Shown here: in pieces, positions 1,206 through 19,100 of the stretch | Layout of the letters: each line of letters opens with the position of its first letter | Numbering within the stretch: position 1 is the first letter of the stretch | Notes under the pieces: model-generated | The model's database searches: none | What the model was told of the DNA's origin: nothing | What the model saw: the letters and a program-made list of their open reading frames with translations, nothing else | Virus record (IMG/VR): IMGVR_UViG_3300003322_000977 | Coordinates: 1 to 24,566 of that record | Source: a virus | Strand: one strand, 5' to 3' | DNA: 24,566 nt | Translations under genes and position numbers: made by a program

Positions 1206-2183
1206 ATGAATAATATTTTTGAAAAAAGAGATTCTATTAAACCATATGAATATCCTAACTTAATGAAATTTACCAATGCAATACATAATAGTTTTTGGAT
1301 TCCAGATCATTTCACATATGATAGAGATGTAATTAATTATAAAGTTGATCTTAATCCTATTGAACAAGATATTTTAAAAAAATCAATGTTAGCAATAGGT
1401 GTTGTTGAAAATAAAGTAAAAACATTTTGGGCAAGAATTGATATGAGAATGCCTAAAACTGAGATAGCAAATGTTGGTCATACATTCGCAGCAAATGAAG
1501 TAATACATCAACTTACTTATGAGAAATTATTGAATTTATTAGGTTTAGAAGAAGAGTTTCTTCATATACATGAAGTTCCTTGTATGAAAGGAAGATCAGA
1601 ATATTTAAGTAAGTATTTAACTGGTGTTCATTCAAAATCAAATAAAGAATTTACAAAATCATTAATTCTGTTTACTCTTTTGGTTGAAAATGCAAGTTTA
1701 TTTTCACAATTTTTAATTGTATCATCTTTTAATAAATATAAAAAAATGTTAACCAATTTTAATACAGTAATTGGTGCAACAGCACGTGAAGAAAATTTAC
1801 ATGCGAAATTTGGTGAAGAACTTATTACAATTATTAGAAATGAAAATCCAGAATGGTTTGATGATGAAATGGAAAAAAAAATCAGACGAAATATACAGAA
1901 AGCATATAAAGCAGAAGTTGAAGTTTTAAATTGGATTTTTGAGAAGGGTGAGTTAGATTTTTTACCTAAAAAAAGTATTGAAGAATATTTAAAATATAGA
2001 TTTAATAAATCATTAAAACAAATAGGATATGAAAATGAATTTGAATTAGATGAAAATTTACTTTCATATTCCAACTACTTAGATGTTCAATTAACAGCAA
2101 CAACATCATTTGATTTCTTTTCAGAGAAGTCAACAGATTATGCACATAACTCTGCTTTTGATGAAGATAATTTATGGAATTAA
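1206..2183 (+). CDS. nrdB: Ribonucleoside-diphosphate reductase, small (radical-generating) subunit
   Basis: This is a class I ribonucleotide reductase beta subunit of 325 residues. The family is a ferritin-like helical protein that makes a metal- or tyrosine-based radical and passes it to NrdA for ribonucleotide reduction. Metal-site residues are visible: E98 and H101 in NEVIH, E161 in LVENAS, and E196/H199 in REENLH. Y105 stands four residues after H101, where the radical tyrosine of class Ia/Ib enzymes sits. The first ligand, Asp in E. coli, appears to be Glu (E68, in VVENKVKTFW), as in class Ic and Id and in many Bacteroidota enzymes. There is no N-terminal ATP-cone. The acidic C-terminal tail ending DEDNLWN fits the peptide that docks on NrdA. 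Start: ATG at 1206 after the A-rich leader AAAATAAAAATTC, with no Shine-Dalgarno. nrdA follows after 17 bases, so the two are surely co-transcribed. Confidence 0.95.
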   Translation: MNNIFEKRDSIKPYEYPNLMKFTNAIHNSFWIPDHFTYDRDVINYKVDLNPIEQDILKKSMLAIGVVENKVKTFWARIDMRMPKTEIANVGHTFAANEVIHQLTYEKLLNLLGLEEEFLHIHEVPCMKGRSEYLSKYLTGVHSKSNKEFTKSLILFTLLVENASLFSQFLIVSSFNKYKKMLTNFNTVIGATAREENLHAKFGEELITIIRNENPEWFDDEMEKKIRRNIQKAYKAEVEVLNWIFEKGELDFLPKKSIEEYLKYRFNKSLKQIGYENEFELDENLLSYSNYLDVQLTATTSFDFFSEKSTDYAHNSAFDEDNLWN

Positions 2184-2200
2184 AATAAAAATAGATAAAG

Positions 2201-3910
2201 ATGAAACTTAATTGGCTAAAAGAAGATCAAATAGAATTTTTAAAAAGAGGTTATTTAGAAAATGATCAAACACCAGAAGAAAGATATAAAGAAATTTGTG
2301 ATACTATAGAAAAATATTCACTGAAACTTTCAAAAAGTGTTGAAGCAATTGAATATTGTAAAAATATTGGAAAAAGATTTGAAGAATATATAAGTAAAGG
2401 ATGGGTATCCTTTTCAACTCCAGTTTTTATTAATTTTGGTAAAAAAGAAAATTTAGCAATTTCATGTAATAAAAGTATACTTAGCGATTCACTTGATGAT
2501 ATATATAAAGGTATTCATGAATTGGGAATGTTGGCAAAATATGGTGCTGGAACATCACAAAATTTTTCAAAATTAAGACCAATTGGTTCTAAAATAAATA
2601 CTGGTGGAGCATCTAATAGTATATTAGATTGGATTGAATTATATGCTGATATGATGTCAAAAACATCACAAAATAGAGCAAGAAGAGGATTTTTAACAGC
2701 GTATCTTTCAGTAGATCATCCAGAAATTATGGATTTTTTAGATATTGGTACACACAGAATGCCAACAGAAAAACAACGTTTTTTTCAAACAATTACAACC
2801 GCAGTAACATTACCTATTGGATGGAGAAAATCTTTAAAAGATGGTGATTTAGAAAAACGTAAAATTTGGGCAAAAATATTAAAAACAAGAAAGGAAATCG
2901 GATTCCCATATATTATTGATCTTGAAAATGCTAATGAAAATAAACCACAGGTTTATAAAGATAAAAATATGAATATTAGTACTTCTAATATTTGCACGGA
3001 AGTTCAAGAATATGCTGATGATAAAAAAACATTTGCGTGTTGTTTATCTTCTGCTAATGCATATTATTTTGATGAATGGGAAAATCATCCAAATTTCATA
3101 TTTGATATGAATATAATGTTAGATTGTGTTATTGAAGAATATATTGAAAAAGGTAAAAAACTTTCAGGTCTTGAAAAATCTGTTAAATTTGCAGAAGAAC
3201 ATAGATCAATTGGATTAGGAATTTTAGGATTTCATTCATATTTACAAAAAAAATCTATAGTATTTGGTGAATTAGCTTCATATTCAGTTAATCATAGAAT
3301 TTTTTCTAAATTAAGATCAGAATCAGATAGATCATCTAAGTGGATGGCAGAACATTTTGGTGAACCAGAAATGTTAAAAGGTTATGGTTTTAGAAATACA
3401 ACAAGATTAGCACAAGCACCAACTAAGTCGACATCATATATTATGGGAGGATTAACATTAAATCTTTCTGAGGGTGTTGAACCACACAAATCAAATTATA
3501 CTTCAAAAAAATTGGCTAAGATTCAATCTGAAGTTAAAAATAAAGAATTGATTGATTTATTAGAAAGTAAAGAAAAAAATAATAAATCAACATGGGATTC
3601 AATACTTTTACACAATGGTTCTGTTCAACATTTAGAATTTTTAACTGATAGAGAAAAAGCAATATTTAAAACATTTTCAGAAATATCACAAGTAGATGTT
3701 ATTAAGCTTGCAGCTCAAAGACAAAAATTTATTGATCAAGGTCAATCTATTAATATAATGATACATCCTGATACTCCAGTAAATGAAATAAATAAATTAC
3801 ATTTGCTTGCTTTTGATGAAGGTTTAAAATCATTATATTATCAATATTCAATTAATGCTGCACAAGAATTTAATAAAGATTTATTGACTTGCTCAAGTTG
3901 TGAAGCATAA
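2201..3910 (+). CDS. nrdA: Ribonucleoside-diphosphate reductase, large (catalytic) subunit without ATP-cone
   Basis: This is a class I ribonucleotide reductase alpha subunit that reduces ribonucleotides for phage DNA synthesis. All catalytic landmarks are present: C89 (ISCNKS) and C280 (FACCLSSAN) for the active-site disulfide; N263, C265 and E267 in NICTEV around the thiyl-radical cysteine; Y546-Y547 in SLYYQ for radical transfer; the APTKSTS phosphate-binding loop; and a C-terminal redox pair C564/C567 in CSSCEA. At 569 residues it is much shorter than the usual 750 or so. The protein begins directly in the region that normally follows the ATP-cone, so the overall-activity (dATP off-switch) domain is missing. 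The SDSLDD segment of the specificity-site region is kept. The start at 2201 follows GATAAAG, an A-rich leader. It is the last gene before the terminator at 3936. Confidence 0.95.
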   Translation: MKLNWLKEDQIEFLKRGYLENDQTPEERYKEICDTIEKYSLKLSKSVEAIEYCKNIGKRFEEYISKGWVSFSTPVFINFGKKENLAISCNKSILSDSLDDIYKGIHELGMLAKYGAGTSQNFSKLRPIGSKINTGGASNSILDWIELYADMMSKTSQNRARRGFLTAYLSVDHPEIMDFLDIGTHRMPTEKQRFFQTITTAVTLPIGWRKSLKDGDLEKRKIWAKILKTRKEIGFPYIIDLENANENKPQVYKDKNMNISTSNICTEVQEYADDKKTFACCLSSANAYYFDEWENHPNFIFDMNIMLDCVIEEYIEKGKKLSGLEKSVKFAEEHRSIGLGILGFHSYLQKKSIVFGELASYSVNHRIFSKLRSESDRSSKWMAEHFGEPEMLKGYGFRNTTRLAQAPTKSTSYIMGGLTLNLSEGVEPHKSNYTSKKLAKIQSEVKNKELIDLLESKEKNNKSTWDSILLHNGSVQHLEFLTDREKAIFKTFSEISQVDVIKLAAQRQKFIDQGQSINIMIHPDTPVNEINKLHLLAFDEGLKSLYYQYSINAAQEFNKDLLTCSSCEA

Positions 3911-4031: not shown

Positions 4032-6452
4032 ATGACATTCAATACAAGGCCAAATATTGACAACAGACAATTTAGGCAACTTTCTGGTGATAGTATAACT
4101 CTCTCTGGATTAACTAATTTTTTAGGGATTTTACAATCCAAAGGTGTTGAAATTGATGCAACTGCTACAGGTGCAACATCAGGTTTTGTATTAAAATATA
4201 ATGGAAGTAAAATTTTATTATCTCCAGACCTTGCTGGTAGAGGAAATGCATTAACAGACATAATTTCACAATCTGGACATGGTTTTACTGTCGGTTATGT
4301 TGTTGGTTATAATAGTGGAACAACATCATATAGTGGTGTAACTGCAACTAGTGGAAATACTAATGAAGTAATTGGTATTGTTAGTAAAGTATATAATGCA
4401 AATACATTTGAAATAACATATCAGGGTATAGTAACTGGTATGACATCACTTTCACCTAGTGCAACATATTTTTTATCTACAACAACTCAAGGACAATTAA
4501 CTACAACTGAAACAACAACAGTTGGAGAAGTTTCAAAGCCATTATTTGTTGCATTGTCAACTACATCTGGTTTATTTATTAATTGGAGAGGAAATATAAT
4601 AACTACTGGATCAAGTGGAGGTGGTGGAAGTAGTGGTTATCCCGCAATTGGACAGCCAACAGATGGAACATTTTCTGATGGACTTTTACCGTTAACTAGT
4701 GGAGATACAATTGCTGATACTGTTGATTCATTTAATGAATTATTTGCGGTATTAGCACCATCTCCTGCACCATCATTAACAAATATTAGTAAAACTGGAA
4801 CTGGGACATATGTTGCTGCCAAATTATCATTTGGTACATCAAATAATGATGTTGGTTATACTTTAGTGAGTACTGCCGCAGGAAATACTGCAGTTGATAT
4901 TAATGGTAGTTATAATATTGGTGGTACTAGATTAGGAGTAACTAATGGTACAAATATTACAGGTATATTAAATGATAATGTTATAGCTGGTTCATCATAT
5001 CCAGCAGATAGTTTTGGTGATGCCGATAAAGGTAAATTAAAATTATATTTAAATAATGTATTAATTGATTCATTAAATTTAAGTGGTACTACTGCTTCAA
5101 CTAGTAGTACAAGAATGACAGTATCTGCAGCCAGTCCAGTATTAACAGGAAATGGATCACCATTTAACTTTTTTAAATATAGAACAGGAACATATACTAT
5201 ACCTAATAGTTTATTCTTAAATGGAATGAATTATCTAAGAATATTACATGATAAAATAACTTCTACTGGTCAAACTAATTATCTTGAATTTGTATATGAT
5301 CCAGATTTGAGTGTGATGGCTTTTTCAACCTCTCCAACTTTAACAAGTTTAAATTTGGTTGGAAGTAAATTTATATCTGGTGTTCAATATCATGCTAGTG
5401 GTACTGTAAATTATAGCGCATCAACAAATAATGTATATAGAAATACTTATTCATTATCAACAACAGCATTTTCATATCCATCAAGAGTTAATTTAAGTGA
5501 TGCTACAACAATTACTAAATCTGGTGTTGGTATAATAACAGAAACAAATGCAAATAAAAATTTACCTGCATTAAATCCGGGTGTTAGTAATCCAGCACAA
5601 ACAAAATTAAATTTAGTATCAACACATACTATAAATGTTTCAAAAGTATTAGGTACAATAGGAACGTTTGGTAAAATAGAAACTAATTTTACTATAACTC
5701 ATCCATTAAAAACAACATTGTTAGGTGGAGTTGCAACAATGACAGGATTTTTACTAGATGGAACTAATCAAGTTAATAATCAAACAACAGAAGATTTTGA
5801 TGGTGAATTGAATAGAATGCAAAATAGAAGTTATGTTTCCGATACATTTGCAGTAGCAAATAGTTCAACATATCTATGGGACTCAACTCAAAGTTTAATG
5901 GGAGCAAGTCCAACACATAATAATGGTTTACTTATTTTTAATGGTGAATTGTTGTATCCAAATTCTACTTATTTGACAAGTCAATATGGTATTAATTCTG
6001 GTAATTTTGCAGGTATAACACATGGTTATGGAACTAATCCTAATTACTCTTTAGCATCAGGTATTAGACAACATACTAGAAGATTTATATCAACAAATTC
6101 AGTAACACAATCTTCATTAATAATTGATATACTACATAGTGGATCAAATTCTGATTTTATAACTATTGGTGGAACTGGTGGTACTGCTTCAGTTAATAAC
6201 ATAAAACTTGAATGTTTGATTAAACGTAGTGTTGGTTCGACACATGGAATTTTTAATCCATTTGCTTCAACAGGAAATCCTGAAGGTATTGCAAATACAT
6301 CTATTGCTGCTATTCCCGGAGGAACCAGAGTAATATGTACTTTATCAACAGTCCCAAGAATTGCATTGGGTGATTTATTATTCATTAATATAAAAGCATC
6401 CAGTGGATGGACTAATAGGATACAAAATATTAGTACAATTAATTTGATTTAA
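4032..6452 (+). CDS. Phage tail-fibre/structural adhesin, first of the fibre array
   Basis: An 806-residue protein rich in Ser, Thr, Gly and Asn and predicted to be nearly all beta, with no signal peptide or membrane segment. The N-terminus carries QLSGDSITLSG (about residues 16-26), a motif shared with the starts of the proteins at 9648 and 11157 and probably a common docking or trimer-starter element. Residues 45-190 hold fibre-type beta domains (ATSGFVLKYNGSK, then a GHGF...VVGYNSG stretch). A Gly/Ser linker at about 193-202 leads to a long C-terminal part beginning near SFNELFAVLAPSP (from about 232), a type of sequence I associate with phage structural proteins. The start at 4032 is chosen because it gives this N-terminal motif. 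Most likely a distal fibre or baseplate-associated adhesin; the exact role is not shown by sequence. Confidence 0.75.
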   Translation: MTFNTRPNIDNRQFRQLSGDSITLSGLTNFLGILQSKGVEIDATATGATSGFVLKYNGSKILLSPDLAGRGNALTDIISQSGHGFTVGYVVGYNSGTTSYSGVTATSGNTNEVIGIVSKVYNANTFEITYQGIVTGMTSLSPSATYFLSTTTQGQLTTTETTTVGEVSKPLFVALSTTSGLFINWRGNIITTGSSGGGGSSGYPAIGQPTDGTFSDGLLPLTSGDTIADTVDSFNELFAVLAPSPAPSLTNISKTGTGTYVAAKLSFGTSNNDVGYTLVSTAAGNTAVDINGSYNIGGTRLGVTNGTNITGILNDNVIAGSSYPADSFGDADKGKLKLYLNNVLIDSLNLSGTTASTSSTRMTVSAASPVLTGNGSPFNFFKYRTGTYTIPNSLFLNGMNYLRILHDKITSTGQTNYLEFVYDPDLSVMAFSTSPTLTSLNLVGSKFISGVQYHASGTVNYSASTNNVYRNTYSLSTTAFSYPSRVNLSDATTITKSGVGIITETNANKNLPALNPGVSNPAQTKLNLVSTHTINVSKVLGTIGTFGKIETNFTITHPLKTTLLGGVATMTGFLLDGTNQVNNQTTEDFDGELNRMQNRSYVSDTFAVANSSTYLWDSTQSLMGASPTHNNGLLIFNGELLYPNSTYLTSQYGINSGNFAGITHGYGTNPNYSLASGIRQHTRRFISTNSVTQSSLIIDILHSGSNSDFITIGGTGGTASVNNIKLECLIKRSVGSTHGIFNPFASTGNPEGIANTSIAAIPGGTRVICTLSTVPRIALGDLLFINIKASSGWTNRIQNISTINLI

Positions 6453-6463
6453 TATTTTAAAAC

Positions 6464-9400
6464 ATGGCATTAAACGATTCAAATAAAAATAGTATATCAT
6501 TTAAAAAATTAGTAGGAAAAGCACATACTCAACAAACATTTGCTTTTAATGAAGAATCTATTTCATCAAATATTAGTATATCATGTGCTACAGTATTTGG
6601 TGAAACTATTGATCCAACACCAATAACTAATGGACTTACTATACCATATAGCAATGATGGAATTGTTGAAAAAGTTAAATTTGAATTGGAAGTTATTCCT
6701 GATACACAAATAGGTACTAATCAATCACAAGGTTATAGAATTAAATTACCTACAGGATATACTGGTTTAGGTGCATTAGGATCAATATATTCTGGTGGTA
6801 CAATACTTTATAAAGCATTAGGTAGACTTCAGATTGTCCCAAGTTTATATGGAAAATTAAAATCAGATGGAAGTACAGAATATGATCCAATATTATATCA
6901 AACAAATGGATCAACAATAATAACAAAATTTGATTCTATTGATTGGATTTTAGATACATATGCAGGAACTATATTTGTACAAAGTCCACCATCTAATTAC
7001 AATATTAGTGCAGCCAGACCGGGTTATTTAGAAGCATTTTTATATATTGGAAAATATGTTGATCAAATTATTTCTGGAACAACTCCAGCAGTATCCGGTC
7101 CAAATTTTTCAGTTCAATGGAGAAATGGAACAGCATTTAGTGGTAGTGGATTTTTTGAATTTATTCCTTCAGCAAATACAGTAACATTAGGTACTAGAAC
7201 AAGTGGAACATTTGGTAGATATAGTTTATCTATTGGTTCAGGAAATACTGTAAGTGGAAATAATAGTGCAGCAATTGGTGCTGGCAACAATGCAAGTGGA
7301 TTAAATTCATTAGCTATAAATTCACAAACTTCGGCAGAAGGAGTACAATCATTTGCTGGTGGTTTTGGTTTAACATCTAAAAAAATAATATCAGCAGGTG
7401 CTAGTGCATTTAATTTCTCAAGAAATACATCTTCACAAATTAGTGGACATGGTGCAAATGCAGATGAATCTGTAATACTTGGTGGTCGAAATAATAATAT
7501 ATCAAGTCTTAATATTGGTTCGGTAATAATAGGTGGAAATGCTATTAAATTAAACAGCAGCGGATATACTTATACAACAGCAGTTCAAAATTTAGCAATT
7601 TTTGGTCCAGTTAGTGGAGGTACTAGTGGTGATACATTTCTTGTAATTGATAATACAACTAAAAAAGTTAGAGGTAGAACAACAAGTGAGGTTATTGGAA
7701 ATATTGCACAAGCACAGGGACCATTTTATTCTATTCAATATAATAAAAATGGTGGTTTTAGTGGTCAAACAGAATTTTATATAGATGAATCTCAACGTGC
7801 TTTAACATTAGGTAGTAGAGATGGTTCTATTGGTGTAAATTCATTTGTTATTGGTGGAAATTCTACTGCTAGTGGGAATTATTCATTTGCAATAGGAGAT
7901 AATACAATATCAAGTAATAAAGCTTCTATTGGGGGCGGTACAAATACAACAGTAAGTGGTGCTAATTCTATAGTATATGGTGAAAGTAATATTTTAGGTG
8001 GAAATAGATCAATAGTTTTAGGTTATAATAATACTGATTTAGCTAATGATAGTGCAATAATTGGTGGATCAGGAAATACAGTTTCATCAGGTAATACTGG
8101 AATTGTTTTGCTTGGAGTAAATGATTTAACAATAACAGGTAGTTCATATAGTAATACAACATTAGTTGATCAATTTGCAATTTTTGGATCACTTACTACT
8201 GGAACAACAGGTGATACTGTATTAGTTATTGATAGTACTACTAAAAAAATAAAAACTGTTTCTCAAAGTAGTATTGCTATTACTGGTATAACTACAGTAA
8301 CAGCAAATAATGGTTTAACTAAAGTTGGTAATAATATCTATTTAGGAGGTCAGTTAACAGGATCAACTACTATAGGTCTTACAGATAACAACTTAATATT
8401 TACTGCCACAACTGGAACACTTCGTTATGGTGGTGATTATTCTGGAAATTATAATATAAGATCATTAGTTGATAAGGGATATGTAACAGGCATAACAACA
8501 ACCTTAACAACTACAGCGAATAATGGAATAACAAAATCAGGTCAAAATTTCAGACTTGGAGGAACATTGACTGGTAATACTATTATTGATGGAAATAATA
8601 AAAATTTATATTTTAGATTTTTAAATACTGGTGGTACATTTAATGTCAGTGGTTCAACTGGGTATAACTTATCATTCGATCCAATAAATAAAAGATTCAT
8701 TGCTGGTAATGATTGTGTTGTTACTGGTGGTTCAATTAATTTTACTTTTGGTGATACAAATACAAATGATGGTGTTTTTGGTTCAGCAATGTTTGGTGAA
8801 TTATCATACATTGATCCTAATGTTGGTTCAGCATTGGCTGTTGGTGAGGCAGTGTGGATCAGAGCTTATGGTGGTAAAGCATTTGGTAGAGGATCAAGGG
8901 TAAATTCTAGTGGTAATTTTTCATTGGTAGGTGGTGGTTATACTGTTGGAAGTACTAACCCCAAAACAAATGATAAAGTACCACAAACAAATGGATTTGG
9001 TTCTTTTGGATTTTATAATACTGATGGTGGACAAACAGATAATCATGGTGCTCTTGCTGACTATTCTGCAATACTTGGTGGATTAAATCATAATATACCA
9101 TCATCATCAATTAGATCAGCAATTTTGGGTGGTGATGCAATAAAAGTTAATACTGGTGTTACTAATACTGTACATTTTCCAAAAGTTAGATTTGGATTAG
9201 GTAATAATGCAAATATTACAACTAATAATACTAATAATAATCTTCTTGTAAGAAATTCAACTACTGGTGAAATTGAAATACGTGATGCTTCAACTATTAG
9301 TGGTGGTACTGGTAATCAAAATATATATTCAACAAAAACTATAGTTAGTGGTAATACAACATTGACTAATAGTGATTTCGTTATATTTTGTCAATCAAGT

Positions 9401-9622
9401 GTAACATCAATAACATTAACATTACCTATTGCTCCTGTTGATGGACAAGTTTATAAAATTAAAGATGTTGATAATGCTCTAGTTAATAACATTACAATTG
9501 ATGGTAATGGAAAAAATATTGATGGAAGTAGTACTGCATTAATTAATACACAAAAAGGAGGTATAGAAATAGTATTTGATCAAACATTAGATGGATGGTA
9601 TGTATTGAATTTTGTAGGATAA
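6464..9622 (+). CDS. Large mosaic tail fibre with YadA-like head repeats
   Basis: A 1052-residue fibre. Residues 1-205 form a mixed domain opening NSISFKKLVGKAHTQQ and ending in a YIGKYVDQII strand, an N-terminal type I associate with phage fibres. Three blocks then show YadA/Hia-type head repeats (S-x-A-x-G spaced every 14 or so residues): about 251-366, 450-560 and 773-896. Two TANNG...LGG.LTG units start at residues 613 and 684, the second preceded by RSLVDKGYVTGIT. The last 93 or so residues form a beta cap with LTLPIAPVDGQVYKIKD and NNITIDGNGKNIDG that is nearly repeated at the end of the next protein. YadA heads are obligate trimers, so a trimeric fibre is likely. It follows the previous stop by 11 bases; the leader TTTTAAAAC lacks a Shine-Dalgarno. 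Confidence 0.8.
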   Translation: MALNDSNKNSISFKKLVGKAHTQQTFAFNEESISSNISISCATVFGETIDPTPITNGLTIPYSNDGIVEKVKFELEVIPDTQIGTNQSQGYRIKLPTGYTGLGALGSIYSGGTILYKALGRLQIVPSLYGKLKSDGSTEYDPILYQTNGSTIITKFDSIDWILDTYAGTIFVQSPPSNYNISAARPGYLEAFLYIGKYVDQIISGTTPAVSGPNFSVQWRNGTAFSGSGFFEFIPSANTVTLGTRTSGTFGRYSLSIGSGNTVSGNNSAAIGAGNNASGLNSLAINSQTSAEGVQSFAGGFGLTSKKIISAGASAFNFSRNTSSQISGHGANADESVILGGRNNNISSLNIGSVIIGGNAIKLNSSGYTYTTAVQNLAIFGPVSGGTSGDTFLVIDNTTKKVRGRTTSEVIGNIAQAQGPFYSIQYNKNGGFSGQTEFYIDESQRALTLGSRDGSIGVNSFVIGGNSTASGNYSFAIGDNTISSNKASIGGGTNTTVSGANSIVYGESNILGGNRSIVLGYNNTDLANDSAIIGGSGNTVSSGNTGIVLLGVNDLTITGSSYSNTTLVDQFAIFGSLTTGTTGDTVLVIDSTTKKIKTVSQSSIAITGITTVTANNGLTKVGNNIYLGGQLTGSTTIGLTDNNLIFTATTGTLRYGGDYSGNYNIRSLVDKGYVTGITTTLTTTANNGITKSGQNFRLGGTLTGNTIIDGNNKNLYFRFLNTGGTFNVSGSTGYNLSFDPINKRFIAGNDCVVTGGSINFTFGDTNTNDGVFGSAMFGELSYIDPNVGSALAVGEAVWIRAYGGKAFGRGSRVNSSGNFSLVGGGYTVGSTNPKTNDKVPQTNGFGSFGFYNTDGGQTDNHGALADYSAILGGLNHNIPSSSIRSAILGGDAIKVNTGVTNTVHFPKVRFGLGNNANITTNNTNNNLLVRNSTTGEIEIRDASTISGGTGNQNIYSTKTIVSGNTTLTNSDFVIFCQSSVTSITLTLPIAPVDGQVYKIKDVDNALVNNITIDGNGKNIDGSSTALINTQKGGIEIVFDQTLDGWYVLNFVG
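7214..7560 (+). repeat. YadA-like head repeat block 1 (in the 6464 fibre)
   Basis: Encodes residues 251-366 with successive SLSIGSGNTVSGNNSAAIG-type repeats, then AFNFSRNTSSQISGHGA and SVILGGRNNNI. The S-x-A-x-G periodicity is that of trimeric autotransporter head domains. Confidence 0.75.
7811..8140 (+). repeat. YadA-like head repeat block 2 (in the 6464 fibre)
   Basis: Encodes residues 450-560, a second run of the same repeat family: NSFVIGGNSTASGNYSFAIG, NSIVYGESNILGG, SAIIGGSGNTVSSG. It is separated from block 1 by a DTFLVIDNTTKKVRGRT linker, and a sister linker (DTVLVIDSTTKKIK) follows this block. Confidence 0.72.
8300..8590 (+). repeat. Two TANNG...LGG.LTG fibre modules, 71 residues apart
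   Basis: The first unit starts at 8300 (TANNGLTKVGNNIYLGG) and the second at 8513 (TANNGITKSGQNFRLGG). RSLVDKGYVTGIT lies between them. DNA in 8489-8517 and 8546-8582 is identical to DNA in the 16168 gene. Confidence 0.85.
8780..9150 (+). repeat. YadA-like head repeat block 3 (in the 6464 fibre)
   Basis: Encodes residues 773-896, ending with NHGALADYSAILGGLNHNIP, which matches at the protein level a block in the 16168 fibre (GHGALAQDSAILGGLNHNIP). The repeat is degenerate at its start. Confidence 0.65.
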
Positions 9623-9647
9623 TTTTATTTTTAATTTTTATGAAAAA

Positions 9648-11147
9648 ATGAGTTTTAAAACAAAACAAGAATTAGGTTTAGGAAAATTTATACAAGAAAG
9701 TGGTTTTACTTTAAATTTATCTGGAACTACTATTGTATTTGGTAAATTACAATATGATAGTTCAGTATTGATAACTGGATCAACACAAGTAACAACTAAA
9801 TCATATGTTGATAATAAATTATTAACAGGATCAACTGCTAATAATGGTATAAATAAAATTGGTAATAATTTTAGATTAGGTGGTGCTTTAACTGGAACAA
9901 CATCAATAACTGGTGCTCAGATATTAAATTTAGGTACTACTGGTTCCAGATTATCACAATTTAATGCTAATGCTTCAGGTATTATTGGTATAAATAGCAG
10001 TACTAGTAATGTTAATATTAGCTCAACCGTTGGTTTTGTTAACATTACATCAAATAATTCATCATCTAATGGTATATTAATACAATCACAAAACACATTA
10101 GAAATTAATGGTAAAACTATTAGTATGAAAGGTACACCTAATAGTTTAGCTGGTATTACTATTTTTGGTAGTACTATTGATTCAATGATATTATCTACTG
10201 GTGATGAATTAACTATTAGTGGTCAAGCCGGATTTGAAGGTGCTAAATATGATGTTGATTATTCTTCTGATTTTGGACCAAGATCATTAGTCGATAAAGG
10301 TTATGTAACTGGTTTAACTTCAGGACTTACTCTTACAGCAAATAATGGTTTAACAAAAATAGGTAACAACATTAGTTTGGGTGGAACATTAACTGGTAAT
10401 ACTACCATTTCAATGGATCAATATAATTTAATTTTTGAACCATCATCGAATTATCAATTACTAGGTTTTGGTACTAATGATTTTCCACTATCTAATATTG
10501 AGGCAAGAACTGGTGGTGCAGGTAGCCAAACTCAATTTAGAGCAGTAAGTGGTAGTTCAATATATTTGAGGAATTTTGATGCTGTTGCAAATAATTCCGT
10601 TGGTGAAATTGCTTTGACTGATAATACAGTGTATAGTGGATTAACACTTTTTAATTATGATGGGTATAATACTCAAATAAGATCATTAAATTCTGGTTTT
10701 ACTACTAATCATGAATTAAGATTTACCACAAACAATGTTAAATTTTATGATAATAAAACAATAAAAACTGGCATTGAATATAATGCAGATTATACAACTG
10801 GGTTTACTAGTTTATCATTAGTACATAAAGGATATGTTGATAATAAAAATAATACAATTATTGGTATTACTGCAAATACCTTACTTACAAATTCAATTGA
10901 TTATGTTTTAGTAAATTCCTCATCATCAGGATTGACTGTAACATTGCCATCAACACCAGATAGTAGTAAAAAAATAACGGTTAAAGATAGAACAGGTAAT
11001 GCATTATCAAATAATATAACAATTGACGGTAATGGAAAAAATATTGATGGAGTATCAACAGCTTTAATTGATACTAATCGTGGTTCACTACAATTTATAT
11101 ATAGTGATGAATTTGATGAATGGTATATTATAGGATTTTTAAATTAA
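9648..11147 (+). CDS. Mosaic tail fibre with shared N-terminal motif and C-terminal cap
   Basis: A 499-residue fibre. The N-terminus holds QESGFTLNLSGTTIVFGKL (about residues 16-34), the same starter element seen at 4032 and 11157. TANNG units start at residues 63 (TANNGINKIGNNFRLGG) and 230 (TANNGLTKIGNNISLGG). The second is preceded by DYSSDFGPRSLVDKGYVTG, and a diverged copy of that run (LSLVHKGYVDNKN) appears again near residue 385. The region between is Ser/Asn-rich beta repeat. Residues about 402-499 form the same cap as the preceding protein (VTLPSTPDSSKKITVKD, then NNITIDGNGKNIDG). Start: ATG 9648 after TTATGAAAAA, with no Shine-Dalgarno; an ATG 7 bases upstream is out of frame. Likely a trimeric fibre with the cap as its tip. 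Confidence 0.78.
   Translation: MSFKTKQELGLGKFIQESGFTLNLSGTTIVFGKLQYDSSVLITGSTQVTTKSYVDNKLLTGSTANNGINKIGNNFRLGGALTGTTSITGAQILNLGTTGSRLSQFNANASGIIGINSSTSNVNISSTVGFVNITSNNSSSNGILIQSQNTLEINGKTISMKGTPNSLAGITIFGSTIDSMILSTGDELTISGQAGFEGAKYDVDYSSDFGPRSLVDKGYVTGLTSGLTLTANNGLTKIGNNISLGGTLTGNTTISMDQYNLIFEPSSNYQLLGFGTNDFPLSNIEARTGGAGSQTQFRAVSGSSIYLRNFDAVANNSVGEIALTDNTVYSGLTLFNYDGYNTQIRSLNSGFTTNHELRFTTNNVKFYDNKTIKTGIEYNADYTTGFTSLSLVHKGYVDNKNNTIIGITANTLLTNSIDYVLVNSSSSGLTVTLPSTPDSSKKITVKDRTGNALSNNITIDGNGKNIDGVSTALIDTNRGSLQFIYSDEFDEWYIIGFLN
9834..9911 (+). repeat. TANNG...LGG.LTG fibre module
   Basis: Encodes TANNGINKIGNNFRLGGALTG and the following strand in the 9648 fibre. It is preceded by TKSYVDNKLLTGS, a diverged form of the RSLVDKGYVTG element. 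Confidence 0.8.
10335..10412 (+). repeat. TANNG...LGG.LTG fibre module
   Basis: Encodes TANNGLTKIGNNISLGGTLT and the following GNTTI strand in the 9648 fibre, directly after RSLVDKGYVTGLTSGLTL. Confidence 0.82.
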
Positions 11148-11156
11148 AAACAAGAT

Positions 11157-12620
11157 ATGTCAACTAAAATAATTTTAGATAACTCAAGAATTAATCAATC
11201 AACAGGTAATACAATTTCATTATCTGGTGATACAATAATTTATGGAAATATTACATATCCAGATAATTATAGTATTACTTCAGATAGATCATTAGTAAAT
11301 AAATTATATGTAACTAATGCTATCAGTACAGGTCAAACAAATACATTAATAAAACACATTACTGGAACTACATATTTAATTAGTAATTCAGATAAAAATT
11401 ATAGCATATATGTTGATGGAATATCAAATACTGATATTTATATACCAGATAATGTTGATAGCGGATTAACTTTCACGACTATCCGTTCAATAGGTGCTGG
11501 TACTGTTAACCATATTGCTACTGGTACATCGGTTTTAAATTCAATTAATAATGCAACAGACATTCAAGTTGAAAATGGTGCAGCTACATGGCAATATATT
11601 GGTAACAGTAACTGGTATGGATTTGGTGCATTAGGAGCTAGTAGTAGTGGTTCTACAGTAACTGCTAATAATGGTTTAACTAAAGTTGGCGATAATATTA
11701 GATTAGGTGGAACATTAACTGGTAGTACAACTATAGAAGGTGGTAATGCTAGTGGTTTATTTTTAGTCAACTTTGATTCTTTTAATATTACTACTACTGG
11801 TGCGAGTTTATATATTGGTAATGGTTTTACTGAAAACATTAGTACTAACGAGGGACTACTTAATCTTGTAGCAGGTGATGGTGTAACAATAACTAGTACA
11901 AATGGAGCTGGTTCAAGTTGGGTTGTAGCACCTCAAGGTGCTATTTCTGGTGGTGAAAGTTTATTGATTGAATATCCAGATATAAACATATCAGCAGATA
12001 ACTTTTGTAAAATTGGAAATCAGACCAATAACAACGCTATTCATCAATCAATATCAGGAACTAACATCACAGTATTTACTGGTTCAAGCAGCACATTTAG
12101 TATTAAAAATGGATTGAATACAATATTTAGTATTAATGAATCTGGTGGTACATCTTTAAATCTTGGAAGTGATGCAACTAATGATATTTTTTATAGAAAA
12201 AGTAATGGTAATCTAGATAGGCTTGCTGCTGGTACAGGTAATACAGTGATGATGTTAAATAGTGCAGGTACATCATTACAATATTCAAAAGTAGGAACAA
12301 ATAATATTGCCAATAATGCCGTTACCTATGGTAAGATGCAAAATACTACTGGCGGTACATCTATTCTTGGTCGTAGTCCAAATAGTGCTGGGGCATTAGC
12401 AGAGATAGCTGCAAGTACAAATGGACATGTATTGAAACGATCTGGAAATTCGTTGGTTTTCGGTATTGTTGAAACAGTGTCGTTTACTGTAAGCACTTTA
12501 CCAAGTGCAAGTACAGCCGGGCAGATGATTTATGTTAGTAATGAATCTGGTGGTGCAGTAATAGCATTTTCAGATGGAACCAATTGGAGACGTGTAACTG
12601 ATAGAGCAATTGTATCATGA
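11157..12620 (+). CDS. Mosaic tail fibre ending in an SDGTNWRRVTDR-type tip
   Basis: A 487-residue fibre. The start carries NQSTGNTISLSGDTIIYGN (about residues 13-31), the third copy of the starter motif, followed by SDRSLVNKLYVTNAI. Residues 63-153 are a diverged version of the cap domain found at the C-termini of the two preceding fibres, here placed internally. One TANNG unit starts at residue 169. The C-terminal part changes style: TSILGRSPNSAGALAEI, then STLPSASTAGQMIYVSNESG and a final SDGTNWRRVTDRAIVS. That ending is one I recognise from many phage and prophage tail proteins. Bases after about 11850 look richer in G+C than the first half, suggesting a module acquired separately. The stop overlaps the next start (ATGA, 12617-12620), so translation is probably coupled. 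Confidence 0.78.
   Translation: MSTKIILDNSRINQSTGNTISLSGDTIIYGNITYPDNYSITSDRSLVNKLYVTNAISTGQTNTLIKHITGTTYLISNSDKNYSIYVDGISNTDIYIPDNVDSGLTFTTIRSIGAGTVNHIATGTSVLNSINNATDIQVENGAATWQYIGNSNWYGFGALGASSSGSTVTANNGLTKVGDNIRLGGTLTGSTTIEGGNASGLFLVNFDSFNITTTGASLYIGNGFTENISTNEGLLNLVAGDGVTITSTNGAGSSWVVAPQGAISGGESLLIEYPDINISADNFCKIGNQTNNNAIHQSISGTNITVFTGSSSTFSIKNGLNTIFSINESGGTSLNLGSDATNDIFYRKSNGNLDRLAAGTGNTVMMLNSAGTSLQYSKVGTNNIANNAVTYGKMQNTTGGTSILGRSPNSAGALAEIAASTNGHVLKRSGNSLVFGIVETVSFTVSTLPSASTAGQMIYVSNESGGAVIAFSDGTNWRRVTDRAIVS
11661..11738 (+). repeat. TANNG...LGG.LTG fibre module
   Basis: Encodes TANNGLTKVGDNIRLGGTLT and the following GSTTI strand in the 11157 fibre. It comes right after the internal cap-like domain, not after an RSLVDKGYVTG element as elsewhere. 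Confidence 0.82.
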
Positions 12621-13612
12621 TGAAATTTGGAATTATACAATTTGGGAAAAATTTTCAAATTTCTACAGTTATTAATCAACGACCAGTAGCAAATAATATA
12701 TTATTATCAAAAAGTGGTAGTACTTACAATGTTACATGGGATTATTTTGATTTTGAAAATAATATTGAAGATGCTCCATTACCAATATCAGTATGTTCAT
12801 ATAATGGTATACTTGCAGTTAATCAAACTTTAACTGGTTCACATACATATAATCAAGTTAATGGAACAATTGAAGGTAATACAAAATATAAATGGTATAG
12901 AGCAGATGATAATTCTGGTACTAATGAAATATTAATTGGTACTAATCAAAATTATACATTAACATCATCTGAATTGAATAAATATATTAAATATGAAGTA
13001 ATACCTGTAACAATTGGTGGTACTACAGGAAATAGTATAACTACATCGTACTCAACTAGTCCTGTAACAGCAGGTTTGGTTCAAAGAAAAATATTAATAA
13101 GTTTTGGTCCATCAACAAAACCATTAGTTACTGGTTTTATAGATACTTGGAACCATGCACATACTGATAATCCTGATCAAACATATAAATTATTAAATCT
13201 TAAACGTAGTGATGGTACTACAACAAGTATAGGTCTTAAAGTTGATTTAGCAATGACAGATAATCCTAGTGGAGTAAACACTGGAAATAATAGTGGTGTT
13301 TTTCCTGATAATGCTATGAAACAAATATGGTATAGTACAGGAACCAGAGGATTTTCATTAACTGGTTTATCAAATACTACACAATATAATGCTCGTATAT
13401 TGGCTGGTACTTCAACGGCAGGAGTAAATCAATCAATAATGACATTTGCTGGAGAACAAAACTCATTATTAGATTGTCATAATAATACAAGTACAACACT
13501 TAATTGGACAGGAAAATATCCAACAAGTGGATCAATTGCAGTTAGAGTTATTGATGGAACAGGGATAAGTCCAATAAACTGTATGGAATTAACTTGGCTT
13601 GAATTACCATAA
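12617..13612 (+). CDS. Ig-like plus beta-sandwich adhesion protein
   Basis: A 331-residue protein with two visible parts. Residues about 20-155 form an Ig/fibronectin-like region. It has a first strand set around YFDFENNIED, then YKWYRADDNSGTNEILIG and YTLTSSELNKYIKYEV, a hallmark of an Ig-like repeat common in bacterial surface and phage tail proteins. Residues about 165-331 form a second all-beta domain with ILISFGPS, a WNHAH segment, GVFPDNAMKQIWY and a closing MELTWLELP strand. I do not recognise a named family, but the layout resembles galactose-binding-like beta-sandwiches, so carbohydrate binding is a guess. The start overlaps the previous stop by ATGA; a second ATG at 12620 is equally possible. 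It sits between fibre and beta-helix genes, which supports a role in adhesion or decoration. Confidence 0.65.
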   Translation: MMKFGIIQFGKNFQISTVINQRPVANNILLSKSGSTYNVTWDYFDFENNIEDAPLPISVCSYNGILAVNQTLTGSHTYNQVNGTIEGNTKYKWYRADDNSGTNEILIGTNQNYTLTSSELNKYIKYEVIPVTIGGTTGNSITTSYSTSPVTAGLVQRKILISFGPSTKPLVTGFIDTWNHAHTDNPDQTYKLLNLKRSDGTTTSIGLKVDLAMTDNPSGVNTGNNSGVFPDNAMKQIWYSTGTRGFSLTGLSNTTQYNARILAGTSTAGVNQSIMTFAGEQNSLLDCHNNTSTTLNWTGKYPTSGSIAVRVIDGTGISPINCMELTWLELP

Positions 13613-13641
13613 AAATAATTTTTAAATAAATTTTTTAATAG

Positions 13642-15573
13642 GTGGCTACAACATATTTTTATAATAAAGGATTTACTATTGATGGTGTAAATAAAGTTAC
13701 ATATGAAGAAAATGAACGACTTCAATTTCGTCTTAATTATTTATTAAATAAATATAGGCAAGTTAATTGGGAATTTATCAATTCTAATACTAATGAAATA
13801 ATTGCAACAAGTAACGAAATAAACCCTTTGTTGACTTTTAATTTTGCTGATGGTATAAATGGTATTGATGTACGTCTTACAATTGATTTTGGTATACATA
13901 GAACTTTATTTTATAAAAGAAGACGTATTATGATAGTTCCAGACACTTCAACTGCAGTTTGGAGTATATCAAATTTAACATCTCCACCAACTTATCAAGG
14001 ACATAGTTTAGTTACAGCATTTGGTAGTCAACATACAATTGATGGTAAATATTTTAGACCGGGTGATATAATTCATATTACCGGAAATTTATCTTCTGAA
14101 AGAATAAGATTTATAAATTTTAATGGTGTAAGTGGTAATCCAATTATTATTACAACCAATAATGATACACAAAGATTAATAACAAAAAGTAATACAACAC
14201 AAGATGATGTTTTTCAAATAAGAGATAATTGTAATCATTTGTGGTTTTATGGAAAAAAAGATATTAATGGTAATAGAAGTATTAAACTAATTGATGGTGG
14301 ATTTTCAGCACAATTGTTTAATGGTATGGCTAATTGTTGTAATGATATACGTGTGTTTGGTTTAGAAACATATAATGCTAAATCTACTGGTATTAAAATG
14401 AAATTAGATGCAGTAAATCGTCATACAGGTGCATTTGATGATTGTTTTGTCTTTGATTGTTTAGTTCAGAAATCAGGAAATGAAGGATTTTATGAAGGCT
14501 ATTTTCAATATAATTGGGATTCAGGTTTTAATGGTGGTGATTATCATCATGTAATGAAAAGATTAAAAGTATTTGCAAATATTGCCAGAGATTGTAAATG
14601 GGATGGAATACAAGTATCATCCTGCAATGAAGATACTGAAGTAGCTTATAATGTTAGCATTAATAATGCAAGTATATCTGACAATAATCAGAATTTTGAA
14701 ATAGTATTAAATAGTGGTTTTGCTGGTCAATGTTATGGTAATGTAATAATTAATACAATAACAAAAGGAGGTTTACAATTATTAGCAAATAAAAATGCTT
14801 ATGTATATAATAATCTTATTTATTGTCCTTTAGCTCAAAATGGTATCTTCTTGCATAGAACAGATAACCCCAATTTTTTAGGTCCAAATGGTGATTCATA
14901 TTTACACAATGATCCAACTGCAAAAATTTATATTTTTAATAATACAATAGTTTCATTACAAGATACATTATATATGTTAAATGAAAAACCAAATAATGTT
15001 GGACTTGTACCTGTATCTGCATTAACATTTATTAATAATGCTGTTTATTATGGTGGTGGAGCAATAGAAGGACAATTGAGATATAATGAACCTACTGGAT
15101 TTAGTCAAACTATAGTAGTTAATAATTATGTTTCTACAACATTAAATGGTCTTGGTGTAAATGTTAGTACTGGAACATCAACCTGTGATTTTGCTAATAA
15201 TTCTGTTGTTCCTACAACACTAGGAATTGATTTGAGTAACTACATTGATGTAACAAAATTAAAATTACCAATTTTTACAGATATCAATGATCAATATATT
15301 CCAATTAAAGGAATATGGCATCCCGGTCATAGTTCAAGAATAAAAGATCATGAAATTATAAATGAACCAGATATAACAAAAACAATGATTCAATGGTATC
15401 AAACTAATGATGTTACTAGAGTTAAAATACCTGAAGCATATGGTTTTGAATTTAAAACTTATAAATTAATTGATAATTCATCATTAAATAAAAAAATTGC
15501 TAGTATAAAACCAATTGCAAAAAATGGAAATAAAATTGGAAATGAAAAATTTTCAGACAATTCTATTAATTGA
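13642..15573 (+). CDS. Right-handed parallel beta-helix protein, possible tailspike/depolymerase
   Basis: A 643-residue protein. Residues about 8-95 look like an Ig/PKD-type beta domain (TYEENERLQFRLNYLL, then WEFINSNTNEIIATS). From about residue 110 to 480 the sequence has the stacked short strands and Asn ladders of a right-handed parallel beta-helix, clearest at 300-400 (WDGIQVSS, VAYNVSINNAS, GNVIINTITKGG, AYVYNNLIY). Pectate-lyase-like helices of this type form phage tailspikes that bind or cut capsule and exopolysaccharide. I cannot point to catalytic residues, so enzyme activity is unproven. The last 100 or so residues (after about 540) are different and lysine-rich. The start is GTG at 13642, because the frame has no upstream ATG after the stop at 13612 and the next gene-like motif begins at once. 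Confidence 0.7.
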   Translation: MATTYFYNKGFTIDGVNKVTYEENERLQFRLNYLLNKYRQVNWEFINSNTNEIIATSNEINPLLTFNFADGINGIDVRLTIDFGIHRTLFYKRRRIMIVPDTSTAVWSISNLTSPPTYQGHSLVTAFGSQHTIDGKYFRPGDIIHITGNLSSERIRFINFNGVSGNPIIITTNNDTQRLITKSNTTQDDVFQIRDNCNHLWFYGKKDINGNRSIKLIDGGFSAQLFNGMANCCNDIRVFGLETYNAKSTGIKMKLDAVNRHTGAFDDCFVFDCLVQKSGNEGFYEGYFQYNWDSGFNGGDYHHVMKRLKVFANIARDCKWDGIQVSSCNEDTEVAYNVSINNASISDNNQNFEIVLNSGFAGQCYGNVIINTITKGGLQLLANKNAYVYNNLIYCPLAQNGIFLHRTDNPNFLGPNGDSYLHNDPTAKIYIFNNTIVSLQDTLYMLNEKPNNVGLVPVSALTFINNAVYYGGGAIEGQLRYNEPTGFSQTIVVNNYVSTTLNGLGVNVSTGTSTCDFANNSVVPTTLGIDLSNYIDVTKLKLPIFTDINDQYIPIKGIWHPGHSSRIKDHEIINEPDITKTMIQWYQTNDVTRVKIPEAYGFEFKTYKLIDNSSLNKKIASIKPIAKNGNKIGNEKFSDNSIN

Positions 15574-15577
15574 ATAG

Positions 15578-15585
15578 TATTTATA
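15578..15585 (+). promoter_or_regulatory. Candidate promoter element TATTTATA before the small paralogous pair
   Basis: The same octamer as at 4009-4016, 14 bases before the 15600 start, in one of the few gaps of more than 20 bases in the fibre block. There is no TTG at the right distance upstream, so it is weaker than the 20011 promoter. Confidence 0.22.
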
Positions 15586-15599
15586 AAAAAATTTGAAAT

Positions 15600-15881
15600 A
15601 TGGAATATGATATAACAAATTTTGGTGGAAATAGAATTGATTCAATACCTGTAGAATACACAAAATTTAATAATAGTGATGAACCATCAAGAATTGATGA
15701 GATAAGTGATACATTATTATATATTGGATATACTAGAGCATCAATTGCTGATGAAAATGCACCTATTTGGAAAATAAAAAGAGTATCTAAAATAGGTAGT
15801 ATTTGGACAATAGCATATGCAACTGGAACTGATTTATATTCTAATATTTGGACAAATAGATTAACAATAACATATAATTAA
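15600..15881 (+). CDS. Small fibre-associated protein, paralog 1 of a tandem pair
   Basis: A 93-residue protein without signal peptide or membrane segment. Its second half follows the pattern Y-x-G-y-(T/A)...W-K-I-(K/R)...(Y)A-x-G...IW-x-N-R-L-x-(I/L)-T-Y. This pattern is repeated in the next gene (APIWKIKRVSKIGSIWTIAY against AAVWKIRKETLTAGETVVKY), so the two arose by tandem duplication. I associate short proteins of this kind with tail-fibre clusters, but I know no established function. A trimer or fibre-tip adaptor, or a small receptor-binding head, is inference. Start: ATG 15600 after the A-rich leader AAATTTGAAAT, with no Shine-Dalgarno. Confidence 0.7.
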   Translation: MEYDITNFGGNRIDSIPVEYTKFNNSDEPSRIDEISDTLLYIGYTRASIADENAPIWKIKRVSKIGSIWTIAYATGTDLYSNIWTNRLTITYN

Positions 15882-15887
15882 ATTATT

Positions 15888-16163
15888 ATGGATTTAAATA
15901 ATAACATTACACATTCAGTAATAGAATATTATCCTAATCAACAATCTTTGACTCAAGATCAAACAGGTGGATGGATAAGAAAATATACCTCTGGTTCAGA
16001 TACTTATTTTGGTTTTGCTAATTTAGGTTCTGATCCTGCTGCTGCAGTTTGGAAAATTAGAAAAGAAACACTTACTGCAGGAGAAACTGTTGTTAAATAT
16101 GCAGATGGTGATTTAAATTTTGACAATATATGGAATAATAGAGCTAGTTTAACATATAAATAA
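15888..16163 (+). CDS. Small fibre-associated protein, paralog 2 of a tandem pair
   Basis: A 91-residue paralog of the 15600 product, six bases downstream. The shared core is YFGFANLGS...AAVWKIRKE...VKYADGDLNFDNIWNNRASLTYK. The N-terminal 40 residues (VIEYYPNQQSLTQDQTGG) are not clearly alike, so divergence is concentrated there. Tandem position, equal length and a common C-terminal core suggest two versions of one domain, perhaps forming a mixed assembly or giving two binding specificities. The next gene starts only four bases after the stop. Confidence 0.7.
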   Translation: MDLNNNITHSVIEYYPNQQSLTQDQTGGWIRKYTSGSDTYFGFANLGSDPAAAVWKIRKETLTAGETVVKYADGDLNFDNIWNNRASLTYK

Positions 16164-16167
16164 TTTT

Positions 16168-19100
16168 GTGCCATTAGCAATTGATAAATTAACAGGAAAA
16201 GTATATTTATTTGATTTTCCTACAACAAGTGGAACTACTAGTGGTGGAACATATCAACAAGTAAATACATATAATGATTTACCAACTCCCGGTTTACATG
16301 TTGGTAAAATTTTTGTCGTTTTAGTTTCAACAGGTAGTTTTCTTTTAAATAGAAAAGAAGCTGGTTTATATATATCAAATGGTGTTAGTTGGAAAAGACT
16401 TGGTGATATACCATCATTTTTTAATGATAACAATTTTAGATTATTTAATGATAATGACAATACAAAACAGATAAAATTTCAATTATCTGGAAACACTACT
16501 AATGTTACACATAATATCGTAATAAGAAATGATAATGATGAAACTATAGCATATTTAAGTGATTTAGATTTATTTAAAGATGAAATTAATGCTTATACTG
16601 GAGCAACAGATATAATAATAAATGATATTTATGATAATATTAATTATATTTCTGGTGTTACAGAAACTAAATTAAATATTACATTATTTAATTCTTATAC
16701 TGCATCTACTGAAAATATATTAGATGATTTAAATCAGGATATAACATATTTATCTGGTCAAACTGATAATAAGTTAAACAAAAATATTTTTAATTTATAT
16801 ACTGGAACCACTGCCTCATCAACTTATGTTTTAAAAACAACATTTTCTAATTTTACTGGTAATACTGCGATACAAAGTGCAAATAATGGTTTAAATAAAA
16901 TTGGAACAAATGTTAGATTAGGTGGTACATTAAGTGGTAATACATTAATTACAACTGCTTCTGGATCAAAATTAGAAATAGCAGGATTTCCAATTAATTA
17001 TACAACAGATTTATCTGCTAATTTTACTTCAAAATCTTTAGTTGATAAAAATTATGTAACCGGCATAACAACAACCTTAACAACTACAGCAAATAATGGA
17101 ATAACCAAATCAGGTCAGAATTTTAGATTGGGTGGATCATTAACTGGATCAACAACCTTAACAACCTCGTCTTTAAATACTTTATCAATTTCTGGTTATC
17201 CAATATTATATGGAAGTGATTTATCATCTAGTTTTTCAAATAGATCATTGGTTGATAAGGGTTATGTTACAGGTATTACAAATACTTTAACAGTAACAGC
17301 AAATAATGGGATAACAAAATCTGGTCAGAATTTCAGACTTGGAGGAACATTGACTGGTAATACTACAATATTAAATAATAACAGTGATTTTAATATTAAT
17401 TATGTTGATTATATACCATCCAGTACTCAGCCAACATTTAAAGAAGGACGAGTTTTTTATGAAACAACTACACATACTTTTTGTTATTATGATCAATTTT
17501 CTGGTACAACGGTAAATATTGGTTATGAAAGTTTGATACGTGTAAGAAATAATACTGGTTCACAGATTAATAATGGTCAAGCAGTCTATATTTCAGGTGC
17601 AATTGGACAAACAGTAACAATTGCACTAGCACAAGCTAATGATGAATCAATAATAGAAAAAACAATTGGTTTAGCGACACATGATATACCAAATAATAGT
17701 TTTGGAAAAGTATGTGTTTTTGGTTTAGTTAATGATATTAATACTAGTTCATATAATGAAGGTGATAGATTATATGTATCGGCAACAGTTGCAGGTGGAT
17801 TAACATCAACACCACCAGTAAGTCCAAATGCAGTAAAAAGAATTGGTATTGTTCAATATAGTCATATAGTTAATGGTAAAATTTTAGTTAGTCCGGGAAG
17901 TAGTTTAGATAATGATAATAATTTAGGTACTAATCAAGAAATAGGTGCAACACAAAATGCAGTAAAAAGTTATGTTGATAATTCAATTGGAGTAGTCTAT
18001 TCTAATGAAACTGGTGCAGTAAAATCTGTAGAAAGTAATATCGACATTGTTGGTACAGGACAAATTATTGTTACCAATGGCAGCAGTGTTTTATCAGGTA
18101 TTAGTACAACCTTTACCGATTCAACATCTGGAATTGGTGTTGGATATTGGTTTCAAGTATGGTTTAGAGATTCTGCAAATACTTTATTTAGAATAGTGCT
18201 TGCAAGTATTACTAATAATACTACAGCAACTATATCTGCTGTTTACAATACAAATGATATACGTAATGGTCAGCAGTCCAATCAAGGTGCCAATTATAAT
18301 GGAGTTAGTGGTACATATAGCTATTATGTTGTTCGGAATGTTGCTGAAGATTTATTCAGCCTTGCATTTGGTAATAATACATATGCTAGAAATTTTGGTT
18401 TAGCCATTGGTGGTAGTGTATCTGCTACTGGTCAAACATCATTTGCATCAGGCAGATTTACATTAGCGGGTGGTGACCAATCATTCACACAAGGTAACTT
18501 GACAAAAGCAAGCGGTAATAGAAGTTTTGCTGGTGGTTTTGGTAATATTACTGGTGGTGATAAACGAGTATTAGCATCAGGTTTACAGGCTTTCAATTTC
18601 TCTGAAAACAATTCATCTCAAACTGTTGGACATGGTGCTTTGGCTCAAGATTCAGCAATATTAGGTGGATTGAATCACAATATCCCTTCAAATAGTTTAC
18701 GTTGTGCCATTATTGGAGGTAACTTAATCAAAGCCGTTGCTGCTGTTAATGATACAGTATATTTACCGTTAGTAAGAATAGGACAAGGTACAGGTGGTGC
18801 ATTGACATCTGGTAGTACTAGTAATGATTTATTGGTACGTAATATTGGTGGTATAATTCAAACAAGAACTGTCACATCTGTTTTAGCAAATTTAACTGCT
18901 AATAATGGTATTGTTAGATCAGTTAATAATTTTAGATTAGGAGGTAGCTTAACTGGTTCAACAACAATAGATGCTACTACTTTTGGTTTTATACAAACAG
19001 GTACAACAGGACAATTTAATGTTGGTAGAACTACCGGTTCAATTAATTTACAATCAAGAAATTCAGTTACACTTAAAGGATTTTCAACTGCAGGAATAGA

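Follow-up and report, generated by a model that had tools for sequence, protein, structure and literature searches.

The window analysed here is an entire IMG/VR virus record, 24,566 bases long. It carries a gene pair that we read, with a probability of roughly 0.93, as encoding, in a T4-like phage with a contractile tail, a complete class Id ribonucleotide reductase (RNR; NrdAi/NrdBi, Lys-containing subgroup) that works by the mechanism proposed below. Sequence, fold and phylogeny lend good support to the assignment to a class Id-like and probably dimanganese enzyme. The two genes are as follows:

1206-2183, plus strand: nrdB, complete ORF of 325 aa, class Id (NrdBi) radical-generating beta subunit (from the ORF, PDB matches, residue alignment, predicted fold and tree)
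2201-3910, plus strand: nrdA, complete ORF of 569 aa, class Id (NrdAi) catalytic alpha subunit (from the ORF, PDB matches, Pfam/NCBIfam and residue alignment)

The gene pair and its setting in the phage

The beta subunit is encoded first, with 17 bases between the genes, an order that is frequent in class Id and was recorded for 70 of 104 NrdAi (PMC9669993). Pfam searches gave Ribonuc_red_sm as the sole domain of NrdB and Ribonuc_red_lgN/lgC as the sole domains of NrdA. The NCBIfam equivalog models matched under their cut-offs and did not name the subclass. A DnaB-like helicase is encoded upstream of the pair, and an SNF2-type helicase and a family B DNA polymerase are encoded far downstream. 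The first 9,895 bases of the window are matched at 99.6% by a sister contig of 75,190 bases (IMGVR_UViG_3300003316_000244) and, since this contig bears a contractile-tail sheath and replication genes, we regard the window as a fragment of a T4-like myovirus. The nearest relatives are viral contigs, together with one contig (L106) binned with a Lacinutrix (Flavobacteriaceae) metagenome genome.

The interval between the RNR genes and the downstream helicase and polymerase genes is occupied by ~15.5 kb of large fibre-like genes (window 4032-19593), whose ORFs gave no PHROG matches where searched. Several of them have in common a repeat resembling ANNGLTKxGxNxxLGGxLTGxT, and the ORF at 6464-9622 contains YadA-head repeats. 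The ORF at 9648-11147 (499 aa) is 167 aa shorter in the sister contig (332 aa), an in-frame difference of ~501 bases between near-identical phages, located at window 9896-10334, which probably arises through internal repeats. On the sister contig, 99.6% identical to the first 9.9 kb of the window, genes for an NrtR-type Nudix regulator, a nucleotidyltransferase-Nudix protein and a nicotinamide phosphoribosyltransferase are clustered (L193:9599-12636); this cluster looks like a phage NAD+ salvage set and is reminiscent of NAD+ reconstitution systems, which act against defences that deplete NAD. The same contig encodes an adenylosuccinate synthetase-like protein of 380 aa (L193:15491-16633; PF00709) with a GDEGKG motif. 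In phages, members of this family can be PurZ, but the Asp that is altered in PurZ seems to be kept in this protein.

Metal site, catalytic residues and subclass placement

Residue columns were read from an alignment with E. coli NrdB and NrdF as references. The first metal ligand is Asp in both references and Glu68 in the phage NrdB, and Y105 aligns with the position of the radical Tyr, as the preliminary description had proposed. The remaining ligands are E98, H101, E161, E196 and H199, and the C-terminal tail Tyr is Y312. An earlier claim that all catalytic residues are intact also holds for NrdA, in which C89, N263, C265, E267 and C280 are kept, together with Y546 and Y547 of the radical path, a C-terminal C564-S-S-C567 and the specificity-site residues D96, R126 and R161.

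Glu in the first-ligand column was also seen in three phages of other subclasses (L099, L101 and L105), in part through doubtful alignment and, judged from these sequences, Glu as first ligand is not diagnostic of class Id when taken alone. NrdBi is marked by the replacement of this Asp by Glu, of Tyr by Trp seven residues on and, in the characterised subgroup, of Gly by Lys (PMC6754362). Class Id enzymes further show a Tyr104-Thr191 pair and a Lys71 near a helix distortion, Thr191 holding the Tyr away from Mn1 in Flavobacterium johnsoniae (PMC8463856, a review). Residues E67/K71/Y104/T191 of the F. johnsoniae beta subunit (PDB 6cwo-6cwq) match E68/K72/Y105/T192 of the phage NrdB, which has W75 as well. 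The set E68/K72/W75/Y105/T192 is invariant in all 80 cellular relatives fetched and is the same in 67 distinct IMG/VR NrdB, save for one viral class Id-type protein (L068:3021-3998) that has Phe where every other sequence has the Trp corresponding to W75. The full residue set was also observed in the NrdB of Rhizobium phage RHph_TM3_3_6 (L097:2941-3981) and of Staphylococcus phage UHP46 (L096:2707-4056), the latter annotated as 'class Ia', which indicates that annotation labels can mislead.

Comparison with all PDB sequences gave the same placement. NrdB scored 302 bits with Leeuwenhoekiella blandensis, 241 with Aggregatibacter and ~215 with F. johnsoniae, beta entries that are named as class Id, against 76 for the best non-Id entry, and NrdA scored 503 and 436 bits with the two solved class Id alpha chains, against 129 for the next. 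We take these chains, PDB 6dqx and 6dqw, to be the class Id alpha structures, in agreement with work cited in PMC9669993. The E values to solved class Id subunits (4e-89 for NrdB and 1e-149 for NrdA) exclude chance as the source of the matches. The characterised class Id NrdB proteins are about 35-47% identical to that of the phage. The NrdA of 569 aa, without PF03477, fits the short, cone-less alpha subunit of class Id, which has a median length of about 565 aa (PMC9531940, PMC9669993). In an AlphaFold model of NrdB (pLDDT 88), helix 51-70 is predicted to stop just past E68 and to resume at 75, and Foldseek placed the model at an rmsd of 1.1 A from the Mn-loaded L. blandensis structure (6sf5) and 1.5 A from the apo form (6sf4).

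In the NrdB tree, which compares the phage protein with cellular NrdB of class Id type and with outlying NrdB from phages rather than with named RNRdb references or named NrdBk (the sister subclass), a branch with full support separates the class Id set from four outlying phage NrdB. The window NrdB falls within a viral clade with L003, L004, L005, L006, L015 and the metagenome-bin contig L106, and does not cluster with a subclass that has Asp as first ligand. The class Id-like reading of the preliminary description is thus borne out by the residue marks, the PDB scores, the superposition of the model and the tree, and use of manganese by the phage NrdB is probable by homology. Classes Ia and Ib were rejected because the first ligand is E68 and not Asp and because no NrdI (PF07972) was found on the contigs examined, namely the window and three related contigs (G001-G003), all of which are fragments. 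The lack of a nearby NrdI is also a mark of class Id, and the pair shows every published sequence mark of this subclass that was checked.

A class Id derivative specific to phages, with altered metal use or allosteric control (for example Fe or Mn/Fe as metal, or a new regulatory site in place of the NrdB ATP-cone of most sampled flavobacterial class Id enzymes), is in our estimate very unlikely. The clade of the window is a distinct viral branch of class Id, and NrdA has a six-residue stretch (about 190-197) that is absent from the two solved class Id alpha chains, but the metal-site and second-sphere residues are all as in characterised class Id enzymes. A class Ic-like enzyme with a Mn/Fe centre of the C. 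trachomatis type is less probable again: although Glu as first ligand is common to class Ic (PMC6370689 Table 4) and the NrdB of C. trachomatis belongs to the closest structures outside class Id, the match to it reaches about 51-53 bits, compared with 302 for class Id. The phage NrdB has Lys72, Trp75 and Thr192, which are specific to class Id, and the ATP-cones found on the alpha subunit of class Ic are absent from NrdA. Class Ic moreover pairs Phe with Glu where class Id pairs Tyr with Glu (PMC8463856). Since residue 105 of the phage NrdB is Tyr and not Phe, class Ic was rejected. Phages often carry captured host metabolic genes, but that the pair is a decaying relic of such capture and not a functional phage enzyme is hardly credible, as the two ORFs are full-length and retain all catalytic residues, and many related viral contigs have the pair in intact form. 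The nearest relatives, at 60-86% identity, come from viruses and not from cells, the sole close one with a cellular label (L106) being the metagenome-bin contig.

Absence of ATP-cones

Neither subunit of the class Id pair carries an ATP-cone, as had been described previously. A search with PF03477 found none in any of the six frames of the window, in the operon or elsewhere, and none in the 75,190-base sister contig; the same search, used as a control, found cones in 12 of 14 control genomes. A cone hidden elsewhere in the window or in the sister contig was rejected on this basis. The preliminary description took the loss of dATP feedback to be deliberate, a reading that is neither supported nor needed, since the NrdAi subclass never carries an ATP-cone (PMC5794259, PMC6370689), the F. 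johnsoniae NrdB has no extra domain (PMC6754362), and the NrdB tree cannot tell cone loss from ancestral absence.

Most flavobacterial class Id NrdB that we fetched have an N-terminal extension of about 99 aa, which is the length of the L. blandensis cone, and no extension is present in the viral clade of the window, L106 included. Cone-less cellular class Id lineages exist in haloarchaea and Armatimonadetes and, together with F. johnsoniae, they place cone absence in the phage NrdB within the normal range of class Id. Viruses are among the encoders of cone-bearing NrdBi (PMC5794259), and PF03477 confirmed that the N-terminal extension of NrdB in Staphylococcus phage UHP46 and in Salicola phage SCTP-2 is an ATP-cone. 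NrdB cones in class Id are an optional add-on, kept in some phages such as these two. Cone-sized N-terminal extensions occur in 2 of 31 viral against 22 of 30 cellular NrdB; four changes between virus and cell are enough to account for the tree. We make no claim of virus-specific cone loss, as a sign test on the only four independent virus/cell pairs has no power and gave p 1 (not significant). As both subunits lack an ATP-cone, the phage RNR should be insensitive to shut-off by dATP, with its specificity site kept.

Proposed mechanism and relation to known systems

By homology, the phage NrdB would bind two Mn(II), and Mn(II)2-NrdB would be oxidised, probably by superoxide, to a stable Mn(III)Mn(IV) centre, the superoxide reaching the site through an opening beside Lys72, where the helix breaks after Glu68. 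An electron hole would then pass from Y312 in the NrdB tail through Y547/Y546 of NrdA to form a thiyl radical on C265, which would bring about the reduction of ribonucleoside diphosphates, with C89/C280 supplying the reduction. C564/C567 would in turn re-reduce these cysteines, together with a reductant that comes from the host or has escaped notice; a search of the contigs, which are fragments, found no glutaredoxin. During infection, we infer that the enzyme would be used to supply dNTPs for phage DNA synthesis. An RNR without dATP shut-off would suit a phage that is building DNA, an argument made already for other cone-less phage RNRs (PMC6370689), and a dATP-insensitive, manganese-dependent supply of dNTPs in infection is a testable idea that has been proposed before. 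The further suggestion that such an enzyme lets the phage avoid iron limitation is not supported by the sole ecological survey that we found, in which viruses that carry subclass Id increase as predicted iron increases, in much the way that Ia viruses do (PMC12918982).

The closest solved NrdB is that of the L. blandensis class Id enzyme (NrdAi/NrdBi; PDB 5olk, 6sf4 and 6sf5), to which the 302-bit match corresponds to 47% identity by structure alignment. It has the same ligands, Lys, Trp and Tyr-Thr pair as the phage protein but, unlike the latter, has an ATP-cone at its N-terminus, and dATP shuts it off. The F. johnsoniae NrdB, which is cellular, biochemically characterised and about 35% identical to that of the phage, belongs to an enzyme with an ATP-cone on neither subunit, as in the phage, and the solved class Id alpha chains (6dqx and 6dqw) are about 565 aa long, like the phage NrdA. 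Among phages, UHP46 and SCTP-2 are class Id by the same residues, with NrdB 43% identical, but keep the N-terminal ATP-cone that the NrdB of the window lacks. The NrdA of SCTP-2 (L102:4030-6699) is 889 aa long and contains an intein-like LAGLIDADG insert at the position of the catalytic cysteine (equivalent to Cys265). Two inserts were likewise observed in an NrdA from the window's own clade (L006:5092-8805; 67% identical, about 1,238 aa), the first of about 320 aa beside the loop-2 region, after residue 158, and the second of about 342 aa exactly at the catalytic Cys265, with a LAGLIDADG match and a sub-threshold intein-splicing match.

Phage RNRs that are labelled 'class Ia' and have class Id residues, such as that of UHP46, imply that database labels understate the presence of manganese-type RNRs in phages. 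A phage-borne class Id RNR is not new. Earlier work reported subclass Id from cyanophage S-TIM5 (PMC6370689), which is likened here by description, and from marine viruses, subclass Id and NrdAk together making up almost three quarters of the class I sequences in ocean viromes (PMC12918982). These enzymes are phage-borne like that of the window, with other hosts and in other clades, and the window adds a further clade of viral class Id.
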